From the NCBI GenBank assembly GCA_949130485.1, contig OX422192.1:7851085-7915084 (forward strand): DNA of 64,000 bases, written 5' to 3'. This document shows, one piece after another, positions 30,844 through 61,774 of the stretch. Each line of letters starts with the position of its first letter. The first letter of the stretch is position 1. The translations under genes and the position numbers were made by a program. The stretch comes from Agelas oroides. Its lineage: Eukaryota; Porifera; Demospongiae; Agelasida; Agelasidae. A model generated the notes under the pieces. That model was not told the DNA's origin. It was given only the letters and a program-made list of their open reading frames with translations, and searched no databases.

Positions 30844-31032
30844 TTGTAGGAGGGGAATTTTTTTTTTTTTGCGTAGTCGGCATTCTTGCAGAAATGGCGT
30901 CCGATCATTATCGTGCTCTATTGGGATTCGAAATCTACGTTCGAGTAAAGTAGTAGTAGAGTAGTAGATTGCTGATTAGTGTCACTGGTTCGCTGTGTGT
31001 GTTAGTATGATGTAAGGAATAAACAGAAAGGT

Positions 31033-33343: not shown

Positions 33344-33984
33344 TCAGCAAAAAATTATGTAACGTGGGCGGATGGCTTCATAATCAAAGATAACAAGCTC
33401 ATCGTAGTTCAGTTCTCCCTTTCCAAAGATGCCTTTACGTTTCCCATGAAATGAGTGGTAGCCAGCTGGGGGTGTGGCAAGTTGAGGGGTGTGGTATCGA
33501 ATGCTGTACTTTTTTCCAGGTGCAATGTCGCACACAAGGACTGCATTGTAACAGGTGTTCTTATCTCTAACTGTGGCACCAAATCTGTTACCGGCTGCAT
33601 AGTCGTAAGACTTTGAAGAGTTGTAAGCAAAATAGAATCCATTGCCAAATCTTTGCCATGCTCTATGGTTGATTCTCTGAGGATCAAATCCTCTCCTGGC
33701 AATTCCACAAGCTCCACAGTTTGGATCATCACACAGTTCTGCACAGTCGGCGAGGTCACAGCACAGTGTGGTACCATGGTAGCGCTTTTCAGTGCCTTGG
33801 TACAAAACAGGAAGCTTGCTACGATAATTATTAAATCTCTCTGCTACCATGGGGTTGACAATCCTAACAATTGCAATGATGGAAGGGCATGGGCCTTTTT
33901 CCTTGGCCCAATCTTTCTGGAACCTTTTGCAAAGGTCTTTGTATTTTTTGGACTGGGAATCAATTTCCACACCAGCCGTAAATC
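33344..33984 (-). CDS. PARP-like catalytic exon (last exon of the short gene)
   Basis: One exon carries the whole catalytic domain, about 213 residues. His is in RYHGT, Tyr in GFYFAYNSSKSYDYA and Glu in YDELVIFD, matching H-Y-E of the ADP-ribosyltransferase fold. CDDPNCGACGI adds a Cys cluster not found in vertebrate PARP catalytic domains. The frame is open and closely matches 59478-60115, including the ending YIIFC, which argues against decay. Mono- or poly-transfer and the targets cannot be told from sequence. Confidence 0.82.
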
Positions 33985-36900
33985 CTGCGGAAAGAAAGAT
34001 ATAAAAGTTGCTATGCCATGACAAATTTTTTTGCACAAGTCTGAGGTTTGAGTTAAGAAGTTCATTTACTCAATATGTATGCTGTAAACACAAGTATATA
34101 TACAAGGGCTACAAAACTAAACATAAAATGTGGGGACACAACTTCAATTTAATTAACCCTTTACATACTAAATTAATTTCCCTAAAGGTCTTGTGTAGAC
34201 AATTTAAATTCAGACTCAAGGTTCATCCATCTCCCATTCACATAGCCAATAATAATCTCCTCACCTAACTACCATCTTAATAAGTGCAACATAAATATAC
34301 AGCGAGGATGGAAACCTGACAGTAGGTGTTTTTTCCATCATATGGACCATCCCTAACCTTCTTCTTTTGCTTGCTGCAGATGAAGTTCACAGAAGTCTAC
34401 TTTCCCTGACGTAGGAATCCTCTGGTCACAACCAGGGTAGTCACCATACAGGCAGTAGAGATCAGCTATATGTTTGAATATAGTTAAAATAATATACTTT
34501 TTTTTTTTAGTAGTTTATAAAGTTTGACATTTGTTACCATAAATGTAACATACATACTACACTATAGATTACTTGAACTTGCAAGGCTCAAACAGATCAT
34601 TAAGCAATGTTTACTTCATGTATGGTGGCCAGTGTTCAGCATCCTTACTGCAGAAAATTAGTGATAAATCTCTTCCATTGATCATTGTAACGAAAACTGA
34701 ATTGATGGCTATACAAGTCACCAAGAGGTCTACCTCTGTTACCAATGGATCTGTCAGTGTTTTCAGCGATGAGGGCCACTGCAGAAGAGAAAGACTTTGA
34801 GAGCTACTGCAGAGCAGCAATGATAATGGGCAGCAATGAAGACAGAGCTGGAGCAATGAAGGCCACGAGAAGATGCCCTGACATGACTGTGAAGCTAACT
34901 TAAAAGGTTAGACTGGAAAGGGCTTCCAGGATAGACCACCAGAGGGTTCATGAACAGCAGAGGTGCCTATAGCTACATGCTTAAAAGTTGTGTTTTGTAC
35001 GTCCAGTAGGGTGTAGATACTTGCATGCCCTGCAAGTATAAACCCTGTATCTTATTTACCCCCCCCCCCCCCCCAAGTTCTTACATAGTAGCTACATGTC
35101 TCCACTAAATGCCCCATGGTGAGCATCTTCTAGAATATTTCAACCATGCACAAAGCACACGTTTGGTAGTATTTGTGGCTTGTAGAAAAGCTAGTTGGAA
35201 GCTTTTAGCTATTTTTTTAGCTTAGCAAAACAGTTGTTTCATTTTCTGCTGAACGTATAGACATATTGACCTTCAACCTTGGATCCTCTTCTGACAAGTT
35301 ACTCACTGCCTCACTTCCATAGCATATACCAACAGGGTATGGTACAGTACTCATGGCTATGGCGAAGTTATGGTGAATATATTGTTGACTTTGTATTAAC
35401 TTCATATGAATCTACATAGCTTCATGCACACTACCATTATACTAATTGTTCAGCATAGACTCTCTCAATTTCATGAAGATGCTACCCATATACAAGTGCC
35501 TACAAAGTTAATGGCCAGTGGTGACAGTCTATAAAGGTACTATACATTGCTCAAGCTCACCCTATGATGCTATAATTATACATACTACATGGTCAATATG
35601 CCATACATTAACTGGTCAATTACTTCTCTGTCTGAACAAAATTACTTATAATTGGTGTGTGTGCGTGTGTGGGGGGGGGGGGGGGGGAGATGGGGGGATG
35701 GGAGGATGGGGGGGATGGGGGAAGGGGGATTCAAATAACAAGTCACTGCATGCCTGCTTACCAAATTCTATGGCATGTTCTTTGGAACAAAAATCATAGA
35801 TACTTTCGTCATCTCTCTCTTGTCTTTGTCTGGTACATTCTGGAAGCCGGCACTGAGAGTTCCAATCTGAATATCATAAGAAAGGTCATAGCAGCACACA
35901 GCATAAGGAGTAAGCATTACCCAAATAATGTTAGACACTTAGAAATACGTTTCAAGCATACTATGCTTTTAGGCTTATTACCAGTATGTCATACATACCA
36001 ATTAACTTTGTCGCTGATGTCCAATTTCCTGTCTGATCATCACAATTCTTTGCCCTCACTGAAAACTGGCAGATACAATCCAATATCAACCCTGACTCAC
36101 TGGTGAGTGTGAGCGTAGTGGAAGAGCTGGGTACAATCTTCTGAATGCTATATCCCTCCTGTTCTTCTCCCTTGAAGGAGATCTCATACTGTGTAAGTTC
36201 TGCAGGGTTACTAAGATCAACATTTGTTGGTGGTTCCCAATCCAGTGTCAAAGAGGGCTTGTTTTTGTCCAGAGTTAATTTCAGATTTTGAACCGGACCT
36301 GGGATCATTGCTGTATAGGTGACAAAAATTGATGCATGCGATGTTAGTGCATTTGACTAGCAACCGAAGACCATGACCTAGATATAGCTCTTGATACAAA
36401 ATGGATCTTAACTGGCTGTGTGGTGTATTAGCCTCGTTCCCAGGCTCTCCCCTCACCTTGACGAAAAATAATTTACGTATAGGGGTGAGGGGAGAGCCTG
36501 GGAACGAGGCTAGTGGTGTATCCTCACAGAAGTATTGTGTCACTGGAGTCCATGGTCCTGCACCGTCACTGCTGACTGCCCTCACTTCAAAGTCATATGT
36601 TTTCAGTGGCTTGAGCCGATCTCTCCCAAGAGCAATTTCATGGTGGTGGCGATCAACTGAAAGTTGCTGAAATGTAGTACAGCTTAGTTGTGGTTTAAAG
36701 CGAATATGGTGTTCTGTGACATCTTCAGCCCTAATGTTTTGTGGTGGATCCCACATCAGTATCACAGATGGAACATCTGGTTTCACTTTAATCTTCAGGT
36801 TCTTAACTTGATCTGGAACTGGAGAACATGAGACGGAGAGAAACTCAAGACAACTAGTTACTGAAGAGCGTGACAGCCATGAGTTAGACATTCAGTAGAG

Positions 36901-41291: not shown

Positions 41292-41319
41292 ATGGGGCAG
41301 TCTGTAGGGCGAGCTGAAG
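41292..41319 (+). CDS. Candidate start exon of the giant gene
   Basis: ATG at 41292 gives nine codons, MGQSVGRAE, plus one base, then GTGAGT. Phase 1 is what the first FN3 exon at 41754 requires. The minus-strand paralogue has an analogous short Met-Gly exon. Gly2 could suggest N-myristoylation, but position 6 is Gly, not Ser/Thr, so this is weak. Such a short exon can occur by chance. Confidence 0.4.
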
Positions 41320-44300
41320 GTGAGTTCTTGGTAAAAAAATGCCAGCTGGTTTCTGCATTCAGGGAACTGGCCCGGCGAAAAATTATATAGTGTTGTTTTG
41401 GGATGTAGTCTCATGCAGATCTGTGTCTGGCCACGCAAGATTATACTATATTCGGGGGATCAATTTGCCAATATTTCTGCCCTTAGGTCATGTAGCCAGC
41501 ATGATAACGTTATTGACCACTGCACTATTCCACACCCATGCAATGTGATACAAAAACAGAAGTGTATATATCATTTCCTTTTTCAACTATACAGATCTAG
41601 CAAATGGAGACTAAGAGGAACTGCATGTACGCACATAAGAATACGAAATGACATCTTTAAGTTCAACACTTTTGTGTTTAGTTATTTCCATGGCTCCCAA
41701 TAAAACCTATGCTTGCAGCTACACATTAAATGTTTGTTTCACCCACTGTGTAGTTGGTGAGGTTCAAAACCTAACGGCAATTCTGCAACCCAACTACGAA
41801 TTCGGTTCAGGGACATTTCTTACGCTACAATGGGATGCACCAATCAAGAACAGTGATGATGAAGTCACATCATATGACATTCGGTTCAAGCCAAAAGATG
41901 GAGATGATTATCATGAGGAAAGTGTAGATGGTCCCAGTAAAACCATCACCCTCACCAAGGCATCAGGAATTGAGCCACTGACCACATACAAGTTTAAAGT
42001 GAGAGCAAGAATTGGAGATACTGAAGGAAAATGGAAAGCTGTGTCACAGTACATTGGTAGGTGTAGAATCGCAAGGCTTATCAGCAAAATGCTTTTATAC
42101 CTAAAGAAACAAGGCCAGGGCTACCAGTATAATATTATTATGCTCATATTGTCTGCATGCCTCACTCTTGTTTCTATAGTCACAACAGGTGGGGATTTTT
42201 TTCTGATATGCTGATAGGAAATTGTAGATTCTGTTTCAGGAAGTAGTGAATGATAAGCTACCTTGTCTAAAGTGTAAACTACCTTGTATGTTTAATCAGG
42301 TTGGGAAATATAACACATAATGCATGTTAGTCTGGGATTTATAGTTCACCCTTGTCCTCGGGCTCCACCCTCAAAGTCAGGTGATCATTGATTGACTATC
42401 ATGCATTATTCATTACATATGTACTTTTCTGTCTTTCAAGCCCTTGCTCCAGCTCCGGTTCAAAACTTTACAGCAACTGTGGACACACACACACCTTCCA
42501 TCATTCTGAACTGGGACCCACATGACAACCAGTCTACAACCGGTGATCCTGTCATTCAATATGATATTCGTTTCAAGCCCAAGAAGGAAGATTGTTACAG
42601 TGAAACAACCGTCACTCCACCAACCACAAGCCTTGTTGTTGGAAGGGACTTGGGTCTTAAGCCGTTGCTGAAATATAGCTTTGAAGTGAGGCCTCGAAAT
42701 GAATACTTTGGAGGAATGTGGGAAACAGTGATGGAATATGTCGGTAAGGATATATAAGTATCACCATAATACTAAGCTATACTGGAAAATATCACAAGTT
42801 TGTTGCTGTCTGTATTGTTACGCGTGCACAGCACAAGTAACAATGCCAACAGCAACAAACCAGTGATATTTATTCTGATATAGCTTGGTACTATGATGAT
42901 AATGATTTTATCATACGAACCTTTGGTTTTATTGCACGTTCAGACGCAAAGCACCTGACTTGTACTTGATATGGATTCTTGTGTGACTTGTAGTACTGAG
43001 ACAGGTTTTCATGTGACTTGCAGTACTGATAAAAATTCTCACATGACTTGTAGTAAAAAAATATGGCTTTTTATAAACCGCATGCAGCTGCAAGGCTTCC
43101 CCATTGACTCCCATACATTCACGTGAGTTAGACGTGTAGGTTATGCATGTCAACTTTAATCGCACAGTAATCCAAAGCTATTGCTGTTCAGATCTATAGC
43201 CTACTAGTGCAGTAACATGACAGAACATATGGCTCTCGATCTCTCTTTCCTTGCAGCTCTGAATCCAGGTCCAGTTCAGAATGTAAGAGCAACTGTAAAT
43301 CCGGAGGTTCCTTCAGTGGATCTGACCTGGGATCCCCCAGCTAACGCCAGTGATACTGGGGATGTTACTATGTATCACATTCGCTTCAAGCAAGAAGGGA
43401 GAGAGTGGTGTAATGAGATGACCGTGGATGGCTCTACCACCAGCGTGGCTCTCACCAGAGAATCAGGGCTTGTTCCACAGACTACTTATGACTTTGCTGT
43501 GAGAGCTCAGAGTGGTGATGACATTGGAGAGTGCGAAACAGTGTCAGCATATTTAGGTGCATATATGTACTGTAACAACAGACATGCTACTATTCAACTT
43601 CCTGTGGCACGTAATATCTATGTAGTACGTAGCTGTGGGGTATAAAGCGCTAACCGCTCGATGGTGGCCATGACGACTATAGTTGTCATTTGTAATTAAT
43701 GTATATATTTATGACGACATTCGGATATAAAGGGTTAATTATACTTGGCCATCCCAGTAATTATACCAGTTGCATCAGTGTGACACGTCATTCATGGCAA
43801 GGAATGTTCCACTGTACTAAATAGGTTTTCTTGAAAGTGCGTTGAAAATCTTCTTTAATTGATTCATGCAGTCTCTTGCTTCATAAGGCTACATTCCTGC
43901 CATAACCATGTAACCAAGGTAGTCCTTCAGGGCCAGATATGCAAGATGAAGCAACGTGCCAACCACTACCAGAATGTTGATTTATAGGTCTTCTGAAAAG
44001 AGTGACTAATTAACTAAAGAGAGAAGCTGCACTCTGAATCCAACAAGTTGGAAGCATCTCTTATGATGCATCACATGTACACACTACTACTGAGACGACA
44101 CATGCACCTGTAGCACGTGGTAAGTTTGAACTTCACAGTAACTTTTGAGGGTCACAATGTTTGATGGCTGCAACCATATTTGGAGACTCCACTTGTACAG
44201 GCTACACTATAAAAACAAAATTACAACTTTAGCAAATTAATTGGTTACTACAATTGCGTGACTGTCTTTCCTATGCTAATTCAAAGAATTTGGTACTTGT

Positions 44301-47300
44301 AAAGCAATTTGTGGGAGACTAGTAAAAATTACTGAAGTTTCAGCTCCTTTTCCAGCCCTGCATTCATAAAATTTCGTAGTATAAGGATGGTCACGTAATT
44401 GTAGTAACCAAATACTTTGCTAACATAACAACTTTGGTTTTGCAGTGTACTGGTGATCTTCAAACTAAAGTGAAGTGACTGAGCATTTTACCAAGCAAAG
44501 GAGTTCTCACTGAACACCAAGACAGTTCTCCAGTGGTCTCTTTGTGGTGTCAACACTGTCTTGTAAACATGATAGCTATGTACAACACACAAGTAGAAAG
44601 TGGTTGACTTGGTCTTGGCTTACACTACATGCAAAGATTCCCTGTTCATTGTGGCCCCACCCTCACCTTCTATGTGTATTCGCACACATCCTACGTTTAA
44701 GCGCATTGATCATTACCACTTAGACTATATGATAGTTTCTCCTTTCAGATGACCTAGCTATATCTGTAAGAGATTTGGTATTTGTGCATTTGGATCTTGC
44801 ACATCTGGCCCAGGAGAATTGGTTGCATGGTTATGGTAGAAATGCCAGGAATGTAGCCAAATAGATCTTCTGAAAGAAGAGCCTGATTTAACTAAAGAAG
44901 AAGCTCCTTATGTGACTTTCAAGAAAACTTATTGGGTATACTATAGCATTCCTTGGTCAAACTGATGATGGTTATTGTGTCTTATACTTCTGCGTCCCAT
45001 TCCGTACACTAGGTCTGATTCCAGGTCTGGTTAAATTGTCAATGGATATGGATTCACATGAGCCCTCTCTGACACTAAGCTGGAAGAGACCAGACAACAT
45101 TTGGGATGCTAAGGAGATGGTGGCATATGATATTCACTTCAAATTGTCAGAAACTGACGAGTATGAGGAGATGAGTGAAGGTTGCTATGCAACTGGTTTT
45201 ACCTTCACTAGGCAATCTGGGCTAGTGCCACTTACTACATATGACTTTAAGGTCAGAGCAAGAAGTGAAGATGGAGAAGGAGAATGGAGCACAGTATCTA
45301 CAAATTTTGGTAAGATAGGAACATTGCTACTAGCTATATCACCAGAGCATGCATCTGTAGAGTGCATGCAATGACCCCCCACAACTTTTGTTCATCCGTG
45401 CCATGCACTTTACATATTTTTCCATATGTGCATGCATATGTGCATGAACAATCAACGAACCACATCCCCCTTAAAAATAGGCCTAGATGTTATACAAAGT
45501 CTGCAATGAACCCCCACAACTTTTGTCAGTCTGTTGACATGTACTTTAAATCTTTTTCCCATATCTGTGCATGTGCATGCAGCTTTTGTCCCTGACCCAG
45601 TCCAGAATCTCACCATCACCGATATTGATGAGAATGAGCCTTCTGTGACACTAACATGGGATCCTCCCGACAATGTCAAAAGTGATGGAGATATTGCTGC
45701 ATATGAGATTCGCTTCAAGACAGAAGGTGGAGATTATGATAAGAGGATTGTGGATGCCTCTACCACTAGTATTGTACTCACAAGTGGACCACATGCAATA
45801 CTGAAATGGAGCCCTGAAAGTGACAAGCCCACTCCACAAGAAACCCAAGACGACCTGTTCAATTTAACTGACACCATAGTCTTCACAAAGGGACCAGGTC
45901 TTGTTCCGTTGGCTGTATCTTTCTTTGAGGTTCGAGCTTCAAACTGCTACAGTGCAGGAGAGTGGAGTGGAGTGTCTACTTATGTTGGTACGTATCTGCA
46001 TTTTATTAGTAAAATTTGCTCAGCATCGTTCAGTGTTGTTGTCTATCCAGTGGTACGAAACAGTTTAGACCAGCAGGATGTGTCATGCACGTACTATAGC
46101 GGCAATTTTATTTCAGTCAGGCAAACAAAATTTTTAGACAATAAACAATATTTGTAATGTGTATACCTACACAAGAACGACATGTGCGAATTGCTCCTTG
46201 TCTCAACAAATAGAATACTTTGGTACAGAGAATACACTTACACACTATGAAAACAAATTGCATGTATCATGGAGTACAGTAGTAACTCCATATGTAGGGT
46301 GGCCCGGTTTTTAAATGGCTGCCACGTTAAAAGTGCATTAATGTCACGTTGGAAAAGTGTATACCTACACAAGAAAGACAACGTGTGAATTGCTTCTTAT
46401 TCCATCATGCAGCTCTGGACCCAGATCCGGTTAGAGACCTCTCTGTTTGTGTGGACCCCACTGTCCCCTCCATAACACTGAGTTGGGATCCACCCACTAA
46501 TGCCATCAATTGTGAAATGGTCACTGCATACAAGTATCAGATTCGCATCAGTCCTGTCAGAGTTGAGCAACACATAGAGTTAACTGTAGATGGCTCTAAC
46601 ACCAGAGTTATCTTGACAAGGGAGCTGGGACTCACACCCCTTACACAGTACCACTTTCAAGTGAGGCCAATGGCTGGTGATGACGCTGGAGACTGGAGGA
46701 GTGTGTCAGCATATTTTGGTATGTTTGTTATGATGGTGTAGTGCTGTTAGGGTTGGAACTGAACTTGGCTTCTTGCAGTGCACGTAGAGATATTACTTTT
46801 ATAGTTATATTATTAGTTTAAGGTTTGCTAAATATTTAGCTAACTACTGGTATAATATGTATGTCTTTACAGTAATGGCCCCTAACTAGTCAAACAAATT
46901 CTGCATCAAGTTATAACAGCTGTGAGATTGAATTTGGCTCACAGAATGATAAGTACTCTGTATGAACCTGCCACACCGTTGCTCCCTGTAGCCCACATCC
47001 CCGGTCCTGTAGAGAACTTTGTACCAACCGTGAACCCAAGTGAACCCTCTGTGACACTGAGCTGGGACCCTCCAGTGAATTCTCAATACAAAGGAGATAT
47101 ATTGTTGTATGATATTCGTTTTAAAGTGTCAGGGAGATGTGATGGACTTGATGATAGTGATGATGGTTCATCTGTCATTCCCTACCAAACTGAAGATGGG
47201 TCAACCACTAGTTTTGTAGTGACCAGAGAATTGGGACTTATACCACTGACTACAGCTACTTTCAAAGTACGAGCAGTGAATGCTGATGAAACTGGAAATT

Positions 47301-50300
47301 GGACAACTGTATCAACTCATGTTGGTAAGAACAGACTTGCTTAGTGCACTAAATAATACTGAAATGTGTCAACCAAACGCATGGGCATGTGTAATAGAAT
47401 CAAAACACTTGACATTCATATATGGAGTTGGTCCTTCTTCCACATTTTCTGCATGCATCCTGAATGCATTTGGTGCATGATGTAGCAGTCCCCATCTCCC
47501 GGTCACCACAGTGCAGCTGATGAGGCCTGGTATTGGCTGAAGCGTGTCCTGCACAGGGGGTGACCTTGCATAACATATTATAGGCCTACCTTTTTTTAAG
47601 GGAGATGTGCTTCATTGATGGTTAATTGATGCATGCACTCTCTGACCTTTGTCACCATGTGCTTACAGGTCTAGTTCCTGGTCCTGTTCGAAACCTGAAA
47701 AGATACATTGACCCAAAGCAGGCCTATGTGACACTGAACTGGGATCCACCACTCAACTTCAGAAGGGCTGGTGAAGTTACTGCTTACGATGTTCGCTTTA
47801 ATCCCAAAGAAACAAGCAACTGTACTCAGTTCACTGTGGATGTATCCACCACTAGTACATTTCTCACAAGAGATACCGGTATCAAAGCATCAACCGTACA
47901 CAGCTTTGAAGTAAGAGCAAGAAACGCTGAGTCCACAGGAGAATGGAATAAAGTTACAGCATTTGTTGGTGAGTTTACTGTAGTTGTCCATGATGAAACC
48001 TAATAAAGGCATGTCAGTCAGCCTATGTACATAAGAACAGGCGGCTAGAGTAAGAGCGTGTAACTCTCCAATAGAAGCCCAGAGTCCAGGCAAACTACTA
48101 ATTTAAACCGTACTGAAAATAGAACACCTGGTCACGTGCTGTATGCTATGCAGCATACGCAGTACGTGTTACTATTTTTACTACTGGTGGTAAGTTTTGC
48201 CCGGTCTCAAATTTTACAGAGTTACACACTGTTACTGTAGACACCATTCTTTATGCACTCTTGATAGGCCCATCTTCAAAAGTAAGCCCACTTATTTTTA
48301 AATGAAGTTATTCAAGATCTTTCAAACTTAAGTACAACCAACTATTTATGCTGCAAGAAGCATTCAAGAAGCTAGCATTGTTGCAAAAGAGGTGGGAGGA
48401 CTAACAAATAAAGACAGGCACCATTTACTGCTAGTGTGTAAGCAGGCGCATGACAAGGGGGTATTGCAAAATCACTGTATGCATACATCTGTAGGGGCTA
48501 GACTAATTGCATGTGAGATGGGTGTGTTTTTGCATGAGTGAAATATCATAACTCTTTAAAAAAAATATGCTCACCCCCCTATTTGAGTGGCCATTAAGTT
48601 CATTGCCCGTAGCAAGAGCGCATAAGAACGGGCAGCTTGAGTAAGAGCGTATAACTCCAATAGAAGCCCACAGTCCGGTCAAAATTATTGAACCGTACTA
48701 AAAATAGAACACCTGGTCATGTGCTTAGCAACAATGGCTTATGTCAATGCAGCATGCGCAGTACGTGTTACTATTTTTAGTACTGGTGGGAAATTCCGAT
48801 CGGTTTCAAATTTTACGGAGTTACATGCTCTTACTCATTAAGCCGCCCGTTCTTATGCGCTCTTGCCCATAGACAATTATTTTCAGGAAATTACAGTATA
48901 ATTATTGCTTTTGCACAGCTCTGCATCTTGATCCAGTCCGTAACCTGTTAGCAGCTGTTGATGAAACTGTTCCTTCAGTGACACTGAGTTGGGACCCCCC
49001 TGCCAATATTCGCAGCACTGAAGAGGTTACTGAGTATCAAATTGATTTCATTAAAGTTAACCATCAGAATGAGACCATGCCTGGTGAGAACACCGAGATG
49101 ACTGTGAATGGCTCCACCAATAGTGTGGTGCTCACAAGAGAATCAGGACTTGAGCCACTAATGCACTATAGGTTTTGGGTCAGGGGCAAAAGTGGACCTA
49201 CGGGTGGTGACTGGGACAACGTGTCAAGACAATACGGTAGGTACTGCATAGTGCACAGTGTATGAATTCACAGTCATCAGATTCTATGTGGCCATGGACT
49301 CAATATCACTTCAGCAGCTCCCTGACTTTAATAAATTGCTGAAACCTGCACTTCAGTCAGCACTGATCATTGTATTAACTGCACTGTACTAAGGCCAGGC
49401 AACCTAGCTGATTTATTGTTTCGCATCAGCGCCCACTTACTCTGAGACCTGCCGCCTCAACTGTCATTATCGCCTTCCAAGCAATGACACACCCACTTTT
49501 ATGGCCGTAGCGCTGTAGATTAGCCGAGTGTATATAGTCTTTGGTAGTAATGATTAATGAATAATGACCGCCAGCCCACATGCAAATCAAGTAAGTGGCT
49601 GATGCGAAACAATAAATCTAGTTTGCCTGGCCTACAAAAGCTCCAGACAAACTTGGTTTTAATAATGATATTCATTTTCCCTGCAGCCCTCGTTCCAGGA
49701 CAGGTCCAGAACCTGAGGTCAACCCTGGATACCGACCAACTTTCTCTGACCCTGAACTGGGACAAACCAAAGAATGCTATGACTGCTGGAGATGTCTCAA
49801 CATACGAAATCCGTTTTTGGCCATCTAACATTGTGAATGCAAAGAACAATTATTCGAGCATTATGGAAACAACTACAAGTATTTGCCTTACAAGAAAATC
49901 AGGCCTCCAGCCACTAACTAAGTATGATTTTGAAGTTAGGGTACGGAATGCTGATCGTAAAGGAGAATGGAGTACTGTGTCAGAATATATTGGTATGGGT
50001 ATATTGTAATCATGCCAGTGTAGTGTCACTTTATGCACGATTTCATATTGTGTTAAGCTGTAGTAGCTCAAGAGCAAGGGATCATAAATGGGGTTTTTAA
50101 ACCCACCATTGAGCCTTGCATGGGAGCTATAACACCCACACAAATTTACTGTACATAGTTTCTAGCCAACACTGCAAGACCAGCCTTGTATCTATTATGG
50201 TAGAGAGTAGGATGAATGTATGAAAAATCAAGACATAACCCTTATTATGAAGTTACAGATATTTCCGGTCTGAATGTATTTTTGCCTCAATGCTGACAAT

Positions 50301-53300
50301 GAGTAGTTGTGCACCAGTCAGCATGTACAAATTAACAACAATAACCAGTGAGCAGATATCCTTGTACCTATGCCATGATTACCTGTAGGTGGAAGCATGT
50401 AAACTCTCCATGTAAACCTGTACTGTTGTTGAATATCCTTTTGTATAGCTTATTCCATCATGCAGCTCTGGACCCAGATCCGGTTAGAGACCTCTCTGTT
50501 TGTGTGGACCCCACTGTCCCCTCCATAACACTGAGTTGGGATCCACCCACTAATGCCATCAATTGTGAAATGGTCACTGCATACAAGTATCAGATTCGCA
50601 TCAGTCCTGTCAGAGTTGAGCAACACATAGAGTTAACTGTAGATGGCTCTAACACCAGAGTTATCTTGACAAGGGAGCTGGGACTCACACCCCTTACACA
50701 GTACCACTTTCAAGTGAGGCCAATGGCTGGTGATGACGCTGGAGACTGGAGGAGTGTGTCAGCATATTTTGGTATGTTTGTTATGATGGTGTAGTGCTGT
50801 TAGGGTTGGAACTGAACTTGGCTTCTTGCAGTGCACGTAGAGATATTACTTTTATAGTTATATTATTAGTTTAAGGTTTGCTAAATATTTAGCTAACTAC
50901 TGGTATAATATGTATGTCTTTACAGTAATGGCCCCTAACTAGTCAAACAAATTCTGCATCAAGTTATAACAGCTGTGAGATTGAATTTGGCTCACAGAAT
51001 GATAAGTACTCTGTATGAACCTGCCACACCGTTGCTCCCTGTAGCCCACATCCCCGGTCCTGTAGAGAACTTTGTACCAACCGTGAACCCAAGTGAACCC
51101 TCTGTGACACTGAGCTGGGACCCTCCAGTGAATTCTCAATACAAAGGAGATATATTGTTGTATGATATTCGTTTTAAAGTGTCAGGGAGATGTGATGGAC
51201 TTGATGATAGTGATGATGGTTCATCTGTCATTCCCTACCAAACTGAAGATGGGTCAACCACTAGTTTTGTAGTGACCAGAGAATTGGGACTTATACCACT
51301 GACTACAGCTACTTTCAAAGTACGAGCAGTGAATGCTGATGAAACTGGAAATTGGACAACTGTATCAACTCATGTTGGTAAGAACAGACTTGCTTAGTGC
51401 ACTAAATAATACTGAAATGTGTCAACCAAACGCATGGGCATGTGTAATAGAATCAAAACACTTGACATTCATATATGGAGTTGGTCCTTCTTCCACATTT
51501 TCTGCATGCATCCTGAATGCATTTGGTGCATGATGTAGCAGTCCCCATCTCCCGGTCACCACAGTGCAGCTGATGAGGCCTGGTATTGGCTGAAGCGTGT
51601 CCTGCACAGGGGGTGACCTTGCATAACATATTATAGGCCTACCTTTTTTTAAGGGAGATGTGCTTCATTGATGGTTAATTGATGCATGCACTCTCTGACC
51701 TTTGTCACCATGTGCTTACAGGTCTAGTTCCTGGTCCTGTTCGAAACCTGAAAAGATACATTGACCCAAAGCAGGCCTATGTGACACTGAACTGGGATCC
51801 ACCACTCAACTTCAGAAGGGCTGGTGAAGTTACTGCTTACGATGTTCGCTTTAATCCCAAAGAAACAAGCAACTGTACTCAGTTCACTGTGGATGTATCC
51901 ACCACTAGTACATTTCTCACAAGAGATACCGGTATCAAAGCATCAACCGTACACAGCTTTGAAGTAAGAGCAAGAAACGCTGAGTCCACAGGAGAATGGA
52001 ATAAAGTTACAGCATTTGTTGGTGAGTTTACTGTAGTTGTCCATGATGAAACCTAATAAAGGCATGTCAGTCAGCCTATGTACATAAGAACAGGCGGCTA
52101 GAGTAAGAGCGTGTAACTCTCCAATAGAAGCCCAGAGTCCAGGCAAACTACTAATTTAAACCGTACTGAAAATAGAACACCTGGTCACGTGCTGTATGCT
52201 ATGCAGCATACGCAGTACGTGTTACTATTTTTACTACTGGTGGTAAGTTTTGCCCGGTCTCAAATTTTACAGAGTTACACACTGTTACTGTAGACACCAT
52301 TCTTTATGCACTCTTGATAGGCCCATCTTCAAAAGTAAGCCCACTTATTTTTAAATGAAGTTATTCAAGATCTTTCAAACTTAAGTACAACCAACTATTT
52401 ATGCTGCAAGAAGCATTCAAGAAGCTAGCATTGTTGCAAAAGAGGTGGGAGGACTAACAAATAAAGACAGGCACCATTTACTGCTAGTGTGTAAGCAGGC
52501 GCATGACAAGGGGGTATTGCAAAATCACTGTATGCATACATCTGTAGGGGCTAGACTAATTGCATGTGAGATGGGTGTGTTTTTGCATGAGTGAAATATC
52601 ATAACTCTTTAAAAAAAATATGCTCACCCCCCTATTTGAGTGGCCATTAAGTTCATTGCCCGTAGCAAGAGCGCATAAGAACGGGCAGCTTGAGTAAGAG
52701 CGTATAACTCCAATAGAAGCCCACAGTCCGGTCAAAATTATTGAACCGTACTAAAAATAGAACACCTGGTCATGTGCTTAGCAACAATGGCTTATGTCAA
52801 TGCAGCATGCGCAGTACGTGTTACTATTTTTAGTACTGGTGGGAAATTCCGATCGGTTTCAAATTTTACGGAGTTACATGCTCTTACTCATTAAGCCGCC
52901 CGTTCTTATGCGCTCTTGCCCATAGACAATTATTTTCAGGAAATTACAGTATAATTATTGCTTTTGCACAGCTCTGCATCTTGATCCAGTCCGTAACCTG
53001 TTAGCAGCTGTTGATGAAACTGTTCCTTCAGTGACACTGAGTTGGGACCCCCCTGCCAATATTCGCAGCACTGAAGAGGTTACTGAGTATCAAATTGATT
53101 TCATTAAAGTTAACCATCAGAATGAGACCATGCCTGGTGAGAACACCGAGATGACTGTGAATGGCTCCACCAATAGTGTGGTGCTCACAAGAGAATCAGG
53201 ACTTGAGCCACTAATGCACTATAGGTTTTGGGTCAGGGGCAAAAGTGGACCTACGGGTGGTGACTGGGACAACGTGTCAAGACAATACGGTAGGTACTGC

Positions 53301-56300
53301 ATAGTGCACAGTGTATGAATTCACAGTCATCAGATTCTATGTGGCCATGGACTCAATATCACTTCAGCAGCTCCCTGACTTTAATAAATTGCTGAAACCT
53401 GCACTTCAGTCAGCACTGATCATTGTATTAACTGCACTGTACTAAGGCCAGGCAACCTAGCTGATTTATTGTTTCGCATCAGCGCCCACTTACTCTGAGA
53501 CCTGCCGCCTCAACTGTCATTATCGCCTTCCAAGCAATGACACACCCACTTTTATGGCCGTAGCGCTGTAGATTAGCCGAGTGTATATAGTCTTTGGTAG
53601 TAATGATTAATGAATAATGACCGCCAGCCCACATGCAAATCAAGTAAGTGGCTGATGCGAAACAATAAATCTAGTTTGCCTGGCCTACAAAAGCTCCAGA
53701 CAAACTTGGTTTTAATAATGATATTCATTTTCCCTGCAGCCCTCGTTCCAGGACAGGTCCAGAACCTGAGGTCAACCCTGGATACCGACCAACTTTCTCT
53801 GACCCTGAACTGGGACAAACCAAAGAATGCTATGACTGCTGGAGATGTCTCAACATACGAAATCCGTTTTTGGCCATCTAACATTGTGAATGCAAAGAAC
53901 AATTATTCGAGCATTATGGAAACAACTACAAGTATTTGCCTTACAAGAAAATCAGGCCTCCAGCCACTAACTAAGTATGATTTTGAAGTTAGGGTACGGA
54001 ATGCTGATCGTAAAGGAGAATGGAGTACTGTGTCAGAATATATTGGTATGGGTATATTGTAATCATGCCAGTGTAGTGTCACTTTATGCACGATTTCATA
54101 TTGTGTTAAGCTGTAGTAGCTCAAGAGCAAGGGATCATAAATGGGGTTTTTAAACCCACCATTGAGCCTTGCATGGGAGCTATAACACCCACACAAATTT
54201 ACTGTACATAGTTTCTAGCCAACACTGCAAGACCAGCCTTGTATCTATTATGGTAGAGAGTAGGATGAATGTATGAAAAATCAAGACATAACCCTTATTA
54301 TGAAGTTACAGATATTTCCGGTCTGAATGTATTTTTGCCTCAATGCTGACAATGAGTAGTTGTGCACCAGTCAGCATGTACAAATTAACAACAATAACCA
54401 GTGAGCAGATATCCTTGTACCTATGCCATGATTACCTGTAGGTGGAAGCATGTAAACTCTCCATGTAAACCTGTACTGTTGTTGAATATCCTTTTGTATA
54501 GCTCACACTCCAGGCCCAGTTCGAAACCTGACAGCTGCTGTAGATCCATACAAGCCTTATGTAATGCTGAAATGGGACCCACCAGCAAATTCTGAAGCGA
54601 GGGCTTACAGTGATCAAGAAATAAGCCGAGAATGCAATACTGTACCAGTAGTAACATCTGTAGGTGGACACATGCCTTCTGTGACGCTGAACTGGGACCA
54701 AACAGCCCATGCTGGATATGTAACAGATGTCACAGAGTACAGAATTCAATTTTGGGATGAGAAAGAAGGCTGCTATAATGAAAAGTCTGTGGATGGTAGT
54801 ACCACTAATATTGTTATCACAAGGGAGTTAGGGCTCAGAACACTGACTACAACCACCTTCGTAGTGAGGGCTTACTGTGGTGATGACGTAAGTGAAGAAA
54901 GAAGGACTACACCAATATTTGTAGGTATGTGTATGGTTAAAGGGGGGAGATTACAGATTGTCTTTATGTAATCAGTGGCGTAGCCAAGGTGTGGCACACT
55001 GGGGCACATGCCCAAGCAACTAGAGCTGTGCCCCACCAGTGTAAGTGTGCCTGTCAAATTAGATTGTACGTACCATTGTCGATTGCAAATTGGGTGCTCA
55101 AAATCCGTAAAAAGCCAGTGTAGCTATCTGTGTCTAGAATACTACACAGTCTCCCACACTCTCTTCACCTCGCTGTTCACAAATTTGAGTAATGCCAGGC
55201 TTCACCACTCATAAGCTCCTGGTAATGCCAATCGCTTACTTGGAAATAGCCTCCAGACCGACCAGAGATTATCTAAAAATTCAAACATTTTCTGGGGGGG
55301 GGCGTGCCCCCAGACTCCCCTAGTTGCTTTTACAGGAGCTCTCAGAAACACACTATGTGCCTATACTGTGCCCTAGCATCATCTGTGACCTGGCTACGCT
55401 GCTGCATGATAATGATTATGCCATGTTGGTAATGAGTACTTTCACATGAAAGGAGAGATCGTGGATCATAGTACCTTACACACTGAAACATTTTTTTCCT
55501 TCATCTTCTCTGCAGCACTGATTCCAGATCCAGTTGAGAACCTGAAGATTGATGTGGATCAAGATGCCCCATCTATCACACTTGCCTGGGAGCCGCCACG
55601 AAATGTTGGAGCTAGTCCCTGGACAGATGTCAGCAGCTACTGGATTCGGTTCAAACCACAAGGAAAAAAGTACTATGAAGAGATGAATGTGGACAGCTCC
55701 ACAACCAGTATAGTCCTCAAGAGAGACGCTGGGCTCATACCACATACGAGGTCCATCTTTGAAGTGAGAGCACAGTGTGGGGATGACTTAGGAAAATGGA
55801 AACAAGTTTCAGCTTTTATATGTGAGTGTACACTAATGAAGATGGTAGACCTACTAACTTCTGCATGCGGCCCTCACCCTCCAGACTGCTTGCATTACTT
55901 ATTATTACCTTTAGCACTCTGAACAGCCCACTAAGTGTTTTCCCTTCAACAAAAGTTATCTACTGGTCTCTGGAGCCTATCAGTCTCAAATGACCCAGGT
56001 GGAAATTGCTAGTGTCTTTACAAGTTTTCAGAACAATTTCAAGATGATTTGTAAATTGTAGCAAAGCTTCTAATCCAAGCTACTAATATTATTCCACCCA
56101 ATTGCCATGTCCTATGCAGTGGGTGTGGTTTATGCACGGTACGGACATGCTTTAAATACCTGAGCAAAACTACATTGGAAATCATAATTTCTGCCTTGGA
56201 AATTAACTTTGTTTTCCAGGTAAAGCCAACAATGTTATGTCTGTAGTCCACCCAAAAGTCACTCTCTCTCACCTACAGCCCTGGTTCCAAGGCAAGTCCA

Positions 56301-59300
56301 GAACCTGAGGTCAGTCCTGAACACTAACCAACCTTCTCTGACACTGAGCTGGGACAGACCAAAGAATGCAATAGCTGACAAAGATGTGACTGGATATGAG
56401 ATCTCCTACAGAGCGTCTCAAAGTAGGGAAAGGTACTGTATGAAGACTGTGAAAGCATCACAAACCTCCATTCTTCTCACAAGGAAATCTGGGCTCAAGC
56501 CACTGACTACATATGACTTTATAGTCAAAGCACGGAATGCTGCCCGGGAAGGATTACCAAGCGCAATATCCAAATATATTGGTACGTACTTACATACTAT
56601 TGGTATGTATACCTATCAAGAGTGCATAAGAACGGGTGGCTAGAGTAAGAACATGTAACTCTGTAAAATTTGAAACCGGTCGGAATTTACCGGCAGTACT
56701 AAAAACACGTACTGGGCATGCTGCGTAAACATAAGGCATTGTTGCTAAGCAAGTGACCGGGTGTTCTATTTTTAGTACGGTTCAATAATTTGGACAGGAC
56801 TATGGGTTTCTATTGGAGTTACATTCTCTTACTCTAGCTGCCCGTTCTTATGCGCTCTTGACCTATATAATACACATTCGTTTTCTTATCTTCTATCACA
56901 TTCTATACTTACATGTCTAAGGGTATATATCCAGCAAAACATTAGTTCATTACATACCAATGCACTGTTTTGTTTCCAGCTCTCACTCCAGGCCCAGTTC
57001 GAAACCTCACAGCTGCTATAGACGCATATCAGCCTTCTGTGACGCTAAAATGGCACCCACCAGCCAATGCCGGATATCCAGGAGATGTCACAAAATACCG
57101 GGTTTGTTTCTGGGCAAAAGAAAGGCACTGCTACAATGAGACGTTTGTGAGTGGTTCTACCACCAGCACTGATATCACAAGATTGTTAGGCCTTAGACCA
57201 CTGACTACATCCACTTTCGAGGTGAGGGCCTGCAGCGGTCACGACATAAGCCGAGAATGCAAGACTGTATCAACATTTGTAGGTATGTGAAAGATTAAAG
57301 GGAAATTCATAACCCCTTGCTACATGTATAGATACATTATAGGAGCTATGTAAACCTTGTTATACTTTCCTCTGCAGCACTGGTTCCAGATCCAGTTGAG
57401 AACCTGAACGTTGATGTGGATCCAAGTGTCCCATCTGTCACTCTCACCTGGGACCCACCACGAAATGTTGGTGCAAAGCCTCAAATGTCCTGGTCAGATG
57501 TGAGCAGCTACCACATTCGCTTCAAACCACAAGAAAGAGAACACTATCATGATTTGAGTGTAGACAGGTCTACAACCAGTGTAGTCCTCAAGAGAAACTC
57601 TGGGCTCATACCACATACGACCTCCATCTTTGAAGTGAGGGCACAATGTGGGGATGACTTAGGAGAGTGGAAACAAGCTTCAAGATACATCGGTAAGTAG
57701 CTACACATACACATACTCATTCCAGTTTCCATCCAGAACCTACTATGTAATCGTCAACCTATCAGATATCAGTTCGGAGTTACTGCACAGTACAAGCCGG
57801 AACATACACATGTGTATATATTTCATTGCAGGTTTGATTCCAGGATTAGTCCAAGAGCTGAAAGCAGTGGTAGAGGAGCGTAAGCCCACCATGATGCTTC
57901 AATGGAAGGTGCCAAGTAACATTTGGAATGTTAAGGAGATCACCTCACACGAGATACGGTTCAAGTCGTGTCAGCAGTCTGAGCAGTATCATTTCTTACC
58001 TTCACTCGGTAGTGACTGCCGTGACATCACTCTTGGGAGGGATCGGCTCAAACCATTGACAGAATATGACTTTGAAGTGAGGGCAGTCAGCAGTGACGGT
58101 GCAGGACCATGGACTGCAGTGAAAAAGCACTTCTGTAAGCATATATTTCCTTGTCACATGTGCTTATGATATTTAGCTTAGGTCATTTTCAAGCCTTTAT
58201 GGTCATTCACAGCTAGAATATCTAATCCCAAGATCTTTAAAAGTCAAAATGCCATAATGTCTCATATTAAGCAGCAGCAACTCATAAGTGGCTTGCAACG
58301 ATAGTGAGGCAACTTGCCTAAAGTGAATTATGGGATGTTTTTAGCCTCTCCATCAAGTTTTCACATCTTGCAGGACCCCAATGCAATGAATGCATGTGTA
58401 AGGCTTGTAAGTTTACATCAGAAGCATGCAAGTAGTGTCAGTTACAAGTGAATGATAGTGCACATTATAATACAAACACTGTTGCTTTTATTTGCAGCAA
58501 TGACGCCAGATCCGGTTCAAAACCTGACACTAACTCTGGATCGAAACAAGCCCACTTTGACAATAAGTTGGGTACCACCAAGTAATATTGATTTCCGTAA
58601 CCCTGCAGAACTTACACATTACGATATTTGGTTTAAGCCACAAAGCCTTGAGGGATACAATTGGAATTGCCAGACTGTCCACAGCTCTTCGACTACTCTC
58701 ACACTCACCAGGAAGTCAGGGCTAGTACTGGATCATGTAAGCCAGTTCTCAGTGAGGGCACAAAACTATGACCGTCGAGCAGTAGAGTGGGCATCTGTGA
58801 CACAAATAGTTGGTACGCTTGCCTACTGTTACCATATACTTAGCTAAGCTCATAAGTGTAAACTGAATACTTGCCATCAAAGATTAAAGCGAATACGGTA
58901 CTTCAATTATTAGCATGGGAAAATCATATACACCACGTATCATATAACTGATTGTTAAACAATTAAGCTATGCATGTTTTTTATGATCCTCATGCAGATT
59001 GGAACTATCAATGCCGACTACCAAGCTGTAACACACGAAGGAGAGAAAGACCTGATAAAACTATTAATGATTTTTGTTGCAAGGAACATGGCAGGCAGTT
59101 TGGTAAGCCATAAGCAATGAATTGTATACTGCATGTGCAGTGAATATTGTACTGAATGTAAGTTGATTCAGGATTGTGGTGAAATATATATCTTTGTCAT
59201 GTAGCTGATCTCTACTGCCTGTATGGGGACTACCCTGGTTGCTGTCAGAGAAAGCCCTCTCCTGTGGGAGCTGAGGCACCTGCAGACTTCTGTGAGATGC

Positions 59301-60115
59301 ATCTACAGCGAGCCAAGGAAGAAGGTTAGATTTTTGTTAAATGTGCAGCTGTTATGCTATCTGGACATGATAAAGTACTTCACAGTTACCATTTAGGATT
59401 GGAAGTTATATTTCTTGCATGAACAGCAAGTACTCTGGTGTGTGGATGAACGTAACTTTGGCATCCTTCTTACCCAGAGTTTGCAGCTGGTGTGGAACTT
59501 GATTCCCAGTCCAAAAAATACAGAGATCTGTCCAAAAAATTTAAGAAAGATTGGGCTAAGGAAAAAGGCCAATGCCCTTCCATCATTACAATTGTGAAGA
59601 TAATCAACCCCATGGTGTTGGAGAGATTTGAAAGCTATCGTAGCAAATTTTCTTCTTACCGAGGCATTGAACGGCATTACCATGGTACAACATTATGCTG
59701 TGACATTGCCAACTATGCAGAGTTGTGCGATGATCCAAACTGTGGAGCTTGTGGAATTGCCAAGAGAGGATTTGATCCTCAGAGAATCAACCTTAGTGCA
59801 TGGCAAAGATTTGGCAATGGATTCTACTTTGCTCCCAACTCTTCAAAGTCGTACGACTACGCAGCTGGTAACAGATTCGGTGCCACAGTTAGAGATAAGA
59901 ACACCCGTTACAATGCAGTTCTTGTGTGCGACATTGCACCTGGTAGAAAGTATGACATTCGATACCACACCCCTCAACTTGCCACACCCCCACCTGGCTA
60001 CCACTCATTTTATGGGAAAAGTAAAGGCATCATGGGAAAGGGAGAACTGAACTATGATGAGCTTGTTATTTTCAATCACGAAGCCATCTGGCCACGTTAC
60101 ATAATCTTTTGCTGA
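41292..60115 (+). CDS. Giant FN3x22 - Cys/His x2 - PARP-like ADP-ribosyltransferase gene (2,630 aa predicted)
   Basis: Exons: 41292-41319 (candidate start), FN3 exons 41754-42056, 42441-42743, 43257-43556, 45013-45309, 45583-45987, 46413-46718, 46992-47324, 47669-47968, 48919-49236, 49687-49992, 50466-50771, 51045-51377, 51722-52021, 52972-53289, 53740-54045, 54502-54924, 55516-55821, 56279-56581, 56980-57282, 57378-57692, 57832-58134, 58498-58812; Cys/His modules 58998-59102 and 59205-59324; PARP-like 59478-60115. Every intron is phase 1 and every FN3 exon is a multiple of three. FN3 marks repeat: PGPVQNL, SVTLSWDPP, YDIRFK, STTS, GLxPLTTYxFxVRA, then YxG at the donor. An AATAAA signal is at 60396. 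No signal peptide is visible with the candidate start, which would mean a cytosolic protein; if the true start is elsewhere this fails. FN3 part and C-terminus firm, start weak. Confidence 0.85.
42756..43138. mobile_element. ATCACCATA palindromic element, inverted full copy
   Basis: A reverse-complement relative of 8744-9098, including the inner palindrome, TTTTATCATACGAACCTTTG and the three CATGACTTGTAGTA-like repeats. It lies between FN3 exons 2 and 3 and starts about 13 bp after the FN3-2 donor. Confidence 0.82.
43557..45012. other. Large intron between FN3 exons 3 and 4
   Basis: Contains a foldback at 44213-44449 (TACACTATAAAAACAAAATT and its mirror ending TTTTGCAGTGTA, inner arms GGTTACTACAATTGCGTGAC / GTCACGTAATTGTAGTAACC). 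The rest is unassigned. At 1.46 kb it is the longest intron of the FN3 array. Confidence 0.6.
45583..45987 (+). CDS. FN3 exon 5 with about 34-residue internal insertion
   Basis: At 405 nt this exon is longer than the usual 297-333 nt. The FN3 framework is normal up to TTSIVLTSGP and resumes at IVFTKGPGLVPLAVSFFEVRA; the added segment includes SPESDKPTPQETQDDLFNL. The repeated SIVLTSGP / TIVFTKGP flanks suggest an in-frame partial duplication or slipped insertion in the E-F loop. Splice sites and phase are intact, so the domain probably carries a polar loop. Confidence 0.8.
48028..48263. mobile_element. CAAGAGCGCAT foldback element, end-truncated
   Basis: Lacks the outermost CAAGAGCG on the left but keeps TACATAAGAACAGGCGGC, the CCGTACTGAAAATAGAACAC core and the right end TTATGCACTCTTG. 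It is duplicated at 52081-52316. Confidence 0.8.
48613..48865. mobile_element. CAAGAGCGCAT foldback element, complete
   Basis: 253 bp with both ends, flanked by CCCGTAG and CCCATAG (a 7-bp target duplication with one change). It lies 53 bp before an FN3 exon. It is duplicated at 52666-52918. Confidence 0.87.
50450..54502 (+). repeat. Tandem segmental duplication, copy 2
   Basis: Second copy of the 4,053-bp unit, with FN3 exons 50466, 51045, 51722, 52972 and 53740. Identity ends at 54502-54503, inside the first bases of the composite exon. The CT shared at the breakpoints points to end-joining or template switching. The exons remain in phase, so the gene gains five FN3 domains without a frame break. 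Confidence 0.95.
54502..54924 (+). CDS. Composite FN3 exon (fusion of about one and a half FN3 domains)
   Basis: This 423-nt exon begins as an ordinary FN3 (PGPVRNLTAAVDPYKPYVML, then KWDPPANSEA). It jumps to DQEISRECNTVPVVTSVG, resembling the end of another FN3 exon (HDISRECKTVSTFVG at 57250-57282), then restarts as HMPSVTLNWDQTAHAGY and runs to a normal end. The middle of the first domain and the intron plus first strand of the second are missing. The frame is open. Confidence 0.85.
54970..55400. repeat. Dispersed repeat (GTGGCGTAGCC / CCCCCAGACTCCCCTAG)
   Basis: Sequence of the type AGTGGCGTAGCCAAGGTGTG followed by GGGGGGGCGTGCCCCCAGAC. Related pieces lie at 39085-39180 and 63460-63620. 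It occupies the intron after the composite FN3 exon. Confidence 0.55.
56617..56860. mobile_element. CAAGAGCGCAT foldback element, core inverted
   Basis: 244 bp with both ends; ACCTAT flanks it on both sides (6 bp). The core (GGTGTTCTATTTTTAGTACGG) is in the opposite orientation to the copies at 14486 and 48613, consistent with a palindromic element. Confidence 0.85.
58998..59324 (+). CDS. Two Cys/His modules before the PARP-like domain
   Basis: Exon 58998-59102 encodes DWNYQCRLPSC and NDFCCKEH, a C-x4-C-x15-C-x3-H pattern. Exon 59205-59324 encodes DLYCLYGDYPGC and ADFCEMHLQRAKEE, a C-x7-C-x16-C-x2-H pattern. Both modules, with the same spacing logic, are in the minus-strand paralogue (35866-35762, 34465-34358). 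Each has the three-Cys, one-His set of a small zinc site; zinc binding is inferred. I recall similar modules before PARP-like domains in some fungal proteins. Confidence 0.75.
59478..60115 (+). CDS. PARP-like catalytic exon of the giant gene
   Basis: It opens FAAGVELDSQSKKYRDL after a CCCAG acceptor and ends YIIFC-stop. The triad residues are in HYHGTTLCC, GNGFYFAPNSSKSYDYA and YDELVIFNHEAIW. The Cys cluster CDDPNCGACGIAKRGFD is kept. It differs from the paralogue at 33344-33984 by scattered substitutions with no frameshift, so both appear to be under constraint. Confidence 0.85.
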
Positions 60116-60395
60116 ATCTATATGTTTATACTGTTCGATAATGTGAATATATATGTCCAACTTACATATAATAGTTATAGCGTAGTGTTTCTTTAAACTT
60201 GAATTTATTCATGCTTATAGCAGGGATTATCATATACTTCAGAACATTAGAATGTGTGTCATTGCTCTGTTATTTAGTGAAACTTTCGGAACGTTAATTG
60301 AGATGCACTGTGAAGAAACGTTCGTTGTTGCTATATGGATTGTATTCGTATACATCTGTCTTTAAGGGCTCATATTCTCTTGTTGGTGTTTCCGA

Positions 60396-60401
60396 AATAA
60401 A
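60396..60401 (+). terminator. Polyadenylation signal AATAAA of the giant FN3-PARP gene
   Basis: A canonical AATAAA lies 281 bases after the stop codon, in AT-rich DNA with no other gene nearby. No nearer AATAAA was seen between 60115 and 60396. Confidence 0.6.
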
Positions 60402-60886
60402 CAACTCGCAGTACCTATTCCACTAGTCTGGAGTTGGTCAACTGAAGATGACACACTGCAGTACAAATCAGGATCAAACCTATATACATGGTCCAGGCAG
60501 AGCTAACTGTACGGTCTGCATGTGCACATATGTTTGCACTTTTGCTTAAACTACCTGTTGCACAAATGACTGACCAATTAATTGGAGTAGGCAGGATCAC
60601 CACCTGCACATCCACACTGGATGTCAGCTAGCTGCTCCTTTGTCCATTCACCAGGCACCTCTGACGTCAATTGCTGCAAAGGTCGTGTTACATAAGCAAC
60701 AGGCAAGATCTCTCCCTCCTGGTAGGACCTACAGCAGCCTGCATATTCAAAATCCTCACTGCACGCAGCTGGAGCATTAAATCACTCGGAGATTTGCAGC
60801 GAGATGACTCCACTTGTGCATGCACACTAATAATTAGTAGGTATGTACGTGCACTCATGGATTTTTTGTCCTGGATCATTTTTTTC

Positions 60887-61774
60887 TTCTTCTTTCCACT
60901 TAGGGTGCTAGGCCCACTGTTGTTTCTTCTCTACATAAAGTTATTGGAGGAAGTCCCCTTGTCTGCAGGTACTAAATTTGTACTGTATGCTGATGACGTA
61001 CTGGTGTATAAACCTATAGCTATCTGTTCACTCAATGATCACCACCTATTTCAATCTGACTTGAATGCAATTTCTACCTGGCTTGCTCAGAATTGTATGA
61101 CTCTTAATGCAGCAAAGTGTAAACATATGTTAATCAGCAGGCAAAGGTCCAGCCTTGTTTCCATCATGCCCTCAATTTTCATTGGTTCACCTGATGCTAC
61201 TATGGAGAAAGTTACTAGCATGAAATATTTATATGGGAGTCCACATATCCTCTGACTTGTCATGGTCTGTTCATATTGACATAATTACATCTAAGGCAAG
61301 GAGAACACTTGGCTTTGTTTACAGGAAATTCTACAGATATGTGAACTCTTCAGTACTAACCAACTGTATACCATCTTGGTTCGCCCCATGCTTGAATGTT
61401 GTTGTGCTGTGTGGGACCCGCATCTCCAAAAAGACTTTGATAAACTTGAGCCCGTACAAAGACTTGCGTGCAAAATCTGCACCAAGAATTGGTCTGCGTC
61501 TCACAGTGACCAACTTCACGCTCTTAACCTTCCTACTACTCGTGATCGCAGACTATTCCTCAAGCTCTGCACAATGTACAAGATTCTTAACAAGACCTTC
61601 TCCTTCCCTGAAAACATAATCAACCTCAGGTCAAGGTTTCAAACCCACCCCATGTCTACTCACCATGTGTCCACAAACACATTGTATACACTAACACAAA
61701 CTCTTTTGACAAACGTGATGATAGGGGGGAGGCCATTCCATAGAGTTGAGGTACTTGGGACAAAGGAATTTTAA
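60887..61774 (+). pseudogene. Non-LTR retrotransposon reverse transcriptase fragment, frameshifted
   Basis: Reading across frames gives GPLLFLLYI, the catalytic YADDVLVYK, LNAAKCKHMLISR, GVHISSDLSWSVHI, RPMLECCCAVWDP and KLEPVQRLACKI, the order of the palm-to-thumb part of a CR1/L2/jockey-type reverse transcriptase. The frame shifts near 61232 and again near 61375, and everything 5' of the GxVLGPLL motif is missing. It is a 5'-truncated dead copy downstream of the FN3-PARP gene. Confidence 0.8.

Follow-up and report, generated by a model that had tools for sequence, protein, structure and literature searches.

A sponge gene joining a long FN3 array to a PARP-type catalytic domain, and its relatives in the genome of Agelas oroides

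The analyzed window, a 64,000-nucleotide stretch of the Agelas oroides genome, contains a gene in which an array of FN3 domains is followed by two Cys/His modules and a PARP-type catalytic domain. This FN3-PARP architecture, observed in a previous sequence-only reading of the same DNA, was confirmed, and its recurrence at other loci of the genome suggests that it represents a real gene family.

Structure of the FN3-PARP gene

Spliced in silico, the plus-strand model (41292-60115) comprises 26 exons and encodes 2630 amino acids. Every exon corresponds to an FN3, a Cys/His or a PARP module or to the 9-residue exon 1, in the order exon 1 (MGQSVGRAE), 22 FN3 exons, two Cys/His exons and PARP exon (Table 1). 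All 25 introns are GT-AG and phase 1 (95-1456 bp in length, median 398 bp), the lengths of the 24 internal exons are all divisible by three, and the spliced reading frame runs without interruption up to the stop at 60115. The previous description of 25 exons from 41754 onward, joined by phase-1 introns without a stop, was thus borne out, with AG/GT ends present and the frame open to that point. The last three introns (102-185 bp) are short for a gene boundary, supporting one gene as the best reading of the FN3 array and the PARP exon. Scores above the curated Pfam cut-off for fn3 were obtained in 16 of the 17 distinct FN3 exons, with the exon at 54502 scoring 24.0 vs. a cut-off of 25. No family match was found in Pfam or NCBIfam for either Cys/His exon, nor any Pfam match to ankyrin or SAM domains in any exon of the model. 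Just after the gene, a fragment of a retrotransposon reverse transcriptase was observed on the plus strand (60665-61771; PF00078, E-value 2.4e-8, for 60665-61252), with no Pfam match for the part at 61295-61771.

Table 1. Features of the window gene and of the other FN3-bearing PARP genes found in the genome. Positions are those of the window.
Feature	Position	Strand	Contig	Evidence or content
Exon 1	41292..41319	+		Starts with ATG, encodes MGQSVGRAE, phase-1 end; N-terminus resembling an N-myristoylation site
FN3 1-5	41754-42056, 42441-42743, 43257-43556, 45013-45309, 45583-45987	+		Local profile, splice model, Pfam fn3 above cut-off
FN3 6-10	46413-46718, 46992-47324, 47669-47968, 48919-49236, 49687-49992	+		Local profile, splice model, Pfam fn3 above cut-off
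FN3 11-15	50466..54045	+		Exact copies of FN3 6-10
FN3 16-22	54502-54924, 55516-55821, 56279-56581, 56980-57282, 57378-57692, 57832-58134, 58498-58812	+		Profile, splice model; Pfam fn3 above cut-off in 6 of 7
Cys/His module 1 (C-x4-C ... FCxxxH)	58998..59102	+		Also in minus-strand and downstream paralogues
Cys/His module 2	59205..59324	+		Also in minus-strand and downstream paralogues
PARP catalytic exon with H-Y-E, plus stop	59478..60115	+		Pfam PF00644, PDB sequence and fold matches, 12-exon alignment
Possible polyadenylation signal AATAAA	60396..60401	+		Sole AATAAA/ATTAAA within 60116-60600
Window gene (whole)			C10	22 FN3 exons, two Cys/His modules, PARP
Minus-strand paralogue	33347..36819	-		PARP exon 33347-33982, two Cys modules, FN3 exons 36003-36308 and 36529-36819
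Downstream neighbour			C10	One FN3 exon, with an in-frame TGA in that exon; Cys/His modules conserved
C2 gene			C2	11 intact FN3 exons and a fragment, PARP; no Cys module detected
Two similar C21 genes			C21	One FN3 exon each; one copy with TAA

Within the FN3 array, a tandem repeat with a period of 4,053 bp was found. Across 4,055 bp, in introns as well as exons, zero mismatches were counted between 46396-50450 and 50449-54503, and exons 12-16 (50466-54045) are identical to exons 7-11. As a reference, approximately 6 substitutions in 104 codons separate a closely related pair of the C2 gene, its modules 4 and 8. A 121-bp query spanning the repeat junction gave a full-length match once in the genome. 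Since there are no differences between the copies, this exact 4,053-bp copy would either have arisen very recently by duplication or be an error of the assembly, and in both cases the frame would be preserved, because whole phase-1 exons are copied. The 22 FN3 domains counted in the sequence-only reading therefore stand as a count in the assembly, but the number of distinct modules is 17, five being exact copies.

The identity of the last exon was evaluated against PARP/ART profiles, as had been proposed along with the previous reading. PF00644 was matched above its curated cut-off (E-value 1.7e-13; 50.9 bits vs. 26.7), and an ART fold was modelled. The PARP His-Tyr-Glu residues reported for this domain were found at H68, Y116 and E194, which we take to correspond to the PARP1 triad, and were invariant in all 12 PARP exons of the same type. 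Among five AlphaFold models of the catalytic exon, the best had a pLDDT of 77.3 and a pTM of 0.80 (pLDDT 68.3 to 35.9 for the other four), and a fold search with this model retrieved a tankyrase-1 chain (E-value 2.2e-13, TM-score 0.70, 25% identity). Based on a single-sequence search of the PDB, tankyrase-1 and -2 were the nearest, followed by PARP4 and PARP3, and a 12-row profile gave tankyrase-1 (1.4e-15) and PARP4 (2.4e-15), with tankyrase-2 behind PARP4. These results support the assignment of the catalytic exon, as modelled, to an ART fold of the PARP type. By sequence and predicted fold, the domain is nearest to tankyrase among solved structures, with PARP4 nearly tying in the profile search. 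In addition, relatives of the PARP domain were searched for in viral sequences, where none of 49 pattern matches was a relative by tblastn, and in phage records, where no match was found.

Related genes in the genome and their divergence

Twelve near-full PARP exons of the same type were found in the genome (259 Mb, 141 contigs); four further partial PARP matches were excluded from the alignment and from all counts. A canonical PARP1 gene and a PARP3-like gene exist separately. FN3 exons were located upstream of the PARP exon in half of the 12 genes, window gene included, on three contigs (C10, C2 and C21; Table 1), and none was detected in the remaining six within the stretches of at least 16 kb fetched upstream of each. 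The PARP of the minus-strand paralogue is 82% identical to that of the window gene; first exons were sought for this copy, where none was found, and for the downstream neighbour. Candidate peptides such as MGQCLLQCCGE (C10:7932968) and MGRRWWTGRPG (C10:7889548) were rejected, as no relative supports them. No Cys module was detected in the C2 gene, so these modules are not essential for the architecture.

Genome searches with two of the FN3 modules resulted in at least 60 matches each (150 of 166 candidates were scored in the second search), and all the matches listed were on C10, C2 and C21, in regions that each also contain a PARP of the same type. A second FN3 array was detected on the plus strand of C2 (15117-15191 kb), with the C2 PARP lying 11 to 85 kb away. 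No PARP was detected on the strand of this array, and two parts of the region, 8 kb and 6 kb long, showed no C-terminal enzyme belonging to it. Several Cys/His modules (C-x4-C ... FCxxxH or FCxxxC) adjoin the FN3-less paralogues (L020, L021, L027), and three such peptides gave no Pfam match above cut-off. Immediately upstream, two C10 PARP paralogues are each preceded by a long frame (L014:6346-8211 and L015:1656-2819, both on the minus strand) that likewise gave no Pfam match above cut-off.

In the PARP phylogeny, one branch (95/93) set the six FN3-bearing genes, along with a single FN3-less long-branch row, apart from the others. The distribution of FN3 on this tree needs two changes, and a single origin was recovered in 18% of 200 bootstrap trees; both results count against one origin of the fusion of FN3 to the Cys-PARP core, which is at most a possibility. 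The FN3 tree showed two module types common to the C10 and C2 genes (99/95 and 100/98), and a third C10/C2 grouping that was an open fork and not well supported (89/80). The well-supported types were represented by several copies each in both C10 and C2 genes, and FN3 21 and 22 paired with the FN3 exons of the minus-strand neighbour (97/94 and 100/100).

With regard to selection, dN/dS ratios of the PARP exons ranged from 0.13 to 0.30 in the 13 computable pairs out of 28 (eight exons), several of the 13 being near synonymous saturation and the remainder having saturated synonymous sites. Values of 0.19-0.30 were obtained when the three C10 genes were compared with one another and for two close pairs. 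For FN3 modules, the ratios were 0.25-0.63 in 11 chosen pairs. Every computed dN/dS was below 1, with no evidence of positive selection. The enzyme looks constrained based on these values, with the FN3 arm apparently evolving faster.

Start of the gene, location of the protein and possible function

The start at 41292 was supported by the C2 paralogue, because the first exon is common to both genes. A 37-bp stretch at exon 1 showed an 89% match to C2:15221099-15221135 (minus strand), where the first exon (MGQSVGRPE) equals that at 41292 in length, phase and donor, whereas the few adjoining bases compared are different. A pattern of 33 places built from these two exons, with up to two mismatches allowed, was found at only two sites of the 259 Mb genome, both belonging to these genes (reversed control, 0). 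Both N-termini start with Met-Gly (MGQSVGRAE and MGQSVGRPE) and, judged by eye against the PROSITE pattern, would fit N-myristoylation.

The nine residues of the conserved first exon do not form a signal peptide, and no strongly hydrophobic stretch was found in the 2630-aa model, whose most hydrophobic 19-residue stretch averages 1.38, a mean that we take to be below the usual level of a membrane span. Cysteines were counted in the 17 distinct modules (a single one in 10, none in two, and two to four in five), and sequons were at chance level (16 vs. 13.6 expected); both counts would weakly favour the cytosol. Considering the first exon, the low hydrophobicity and the few cysteines, the protein is probably cytosolic. 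The previous reading had left its location, inside or outside the cell, to a start then regarded as unresolved. The inside is now favoured, given the lack of a signal peptide, the low hydrophobicity and the presence of at most one cysteine in 12 of the 17 modules.

Starting from the exon structure, fold, conserved catalytic residues, recurrent fusion and catalytic constraint obtained in this analysis, we hold with roughly even confidence that the window gene is a member of a lineage-specific, tankyrase-like PARP subfamily, with FN3 modules placed before a core of Cys modules and PARP, and that it encodes a cytosolic, putatively membrane-tethered recognition enzyme. The protein would remain in the cytosol, possibly held at the membrane by N-myristoylation of MGQSVGR, and its long FN3 arm would bind partner proteins. 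The Cys modules would probably serve as a zinc-binding linker, and the C-terminal enzyme would use NAD+ to attach ADP-ribose to itself or to proteins that are bound or close by. The ADP-ribose could perhaps be added as chains, since the H-Y-E triad is complete. The previous proposal that the FN3 array delivers ADP-ribosylation as a long arm for recognition or scaffolding would fit both the domain order and the seemingly faster evolution of the arm. Two neighbouring copies that carry just one or two FN3 exons count against this explanation, as do the in-frame TGA in the FN3 exon of the one-module copy and the TAA in one C21 copy.

As a special case of this explanation, the gene could encode an intracellular immune or cell-death sensor, whose variable FN3 arms would sense microbial or stress ligands and whose PARP would signal. 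The clustering of the paralogues, FN3 arms that appear to evolve faster than the enzyme, the multiple copies of supported module types in both C10 and C2 genes and the Death-domain frames adjacent to two copies are all consistent with a sensor, but no positive selection was seen (all computed dN/dS < 1), and Death domains are abundant in the genome (at least 88 matches, most over the Death part), making this neighbourhood weak evidence; overall, we consider such a role somewhat unlikely. The Death-domain frame in the window (31006-32058, plus strand) is open over 351 residues and includes a Death domain (PF00531, E-value 1.8e-7), a hydrophobic stretch and a further C-terminal domain, with no match in the PDB. 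The second copy, split over two frames, is located at C10:7927907-7928786, approximately 6 kb before the downstream FN3-PARP copy, and the pairing of Death frames with FN3-PARP copies suggests a block duplication.

Titin and twitchin are giant intracellular proteins with long FN3 arrays, and a scaffolding role is established for tankyrases. The window gene shares the long array and has no apparent signal peptide or membrane span, as would be expected if a titin-like FN3 rod positioned the enzyme within a cytoskeletal or junctional scaffold. Such a role is nevertheless quite doubtful, as the model has no Ig or kinase module and ends in a PARP instead, and the number of FN3 modules detected per gene differs widely across the six genes, between 1 and 22.

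With an alternative start at about 41648, a stretch resembling a signal peptide would run straight into FN3 1, giving a secreted or surface enzyme. Upstream of 41754 the frame is indeed open and contains a hydrophobic stretch (LSSTLLCLVISM), and the FN3 frame of the C2 gene likewise continues upstream for 19 codons before a stop, with one Met and a short hydrophobic run. However, the upstream stretches of the two genes are not alike, all three frames ahead of the C2 array run into stops within 202 bp, and both FN3 exons follow strong acceptors. Together with the conservation of the 41292 exon and the single unpaired cysteine in 10 of the 17 modules, this makes the alternative start, and with it secretion, very unlikely. 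It is extremely improbable that two genes, one with the FN3 array and the other with the Cys-PARP part, were misread as one, since, although no FN3 was detected for 6 of the 12 PARP genes, the same order is found at unlinked loci, with exon 1 shared at two of them, the introns are short and of phase 1, and no AATAAA was found in the last six introns of the gene. These alternatives overlap partly with the preferred explanation, and their probabilities need not sum to one.

Relation to described PARPs

PARP enzymes are classed by the modules that accompany the catalytic domain, since these largely set their site and targets. Among the papers listed from the open literature on FN3 with PARP, as represented by titles and the beginnings of abstracts, no description of an FN3-PARP protein was found, in line with the previous statement that no described FN3-array PARP was known. 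In three papers on the evolution of PARPs and tankyrases (PMC2964712, PMC4245714 and PMC9688111), the word "fibronectin" was absent from all three, and "FN3" from the two checked. The architecture is provisionally regarded as new, its novelty being judged against the open literature.

Tankyrases (PARP clade 4) resemble the window gene in having a C-terminal PARP with H-Y-E after a long N-terminal repeat array, with approximately 25% identity between the catalytic domains in the fold alignment. According to the available portions of two papers, they carry ankyrin repeats and SAM where the window gene has FN3 (PMC2964712, PMC4245714). In the same portions, PARP14-like genes are described as a clustered expansion in lancelet and sponge (PMC4245714), as in the FN3-PARP clusters; yet PARP14-like and clade 3 PARPs have macro, WWE or RRM modules (PMC4245714) rather than FN3, and almost all clade 3 PARPs lack the last Glu of H-Y-E (PMC2964712), whereas the triad is intact here. 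PARP4 (vault PARP) scored close to tankyrase-1 in the profile search, and lower by single sequence and by fold. Its central catalytic domain, as described in the available part of PMC2964712, is surrounded by BRCT, VIT and vWA domains, unlike that of FN3-PARP.

The FN3 arm recurs at unlinked loci, two of which share the first exon, and this makes a one-off misannotation unlikely; the window gene would represent a family member and not a single oddity. With one module per phase-1 exon, the arm would be easily lengthened or shortened, as the differing arrays show. That these genes constitute a new class of ADP-ribosyltransferases, tethered to the membrane and equipped with long, reshuffled FN3 arms for recognition, and that they serve this lineage for recognition and signalling inside the cell, is a broader proposal that we regard as unlikely at present. 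The architecture may nonetheless offer a possible route for adhesion-type modules to aim ADP-ribosylation inside the cell.
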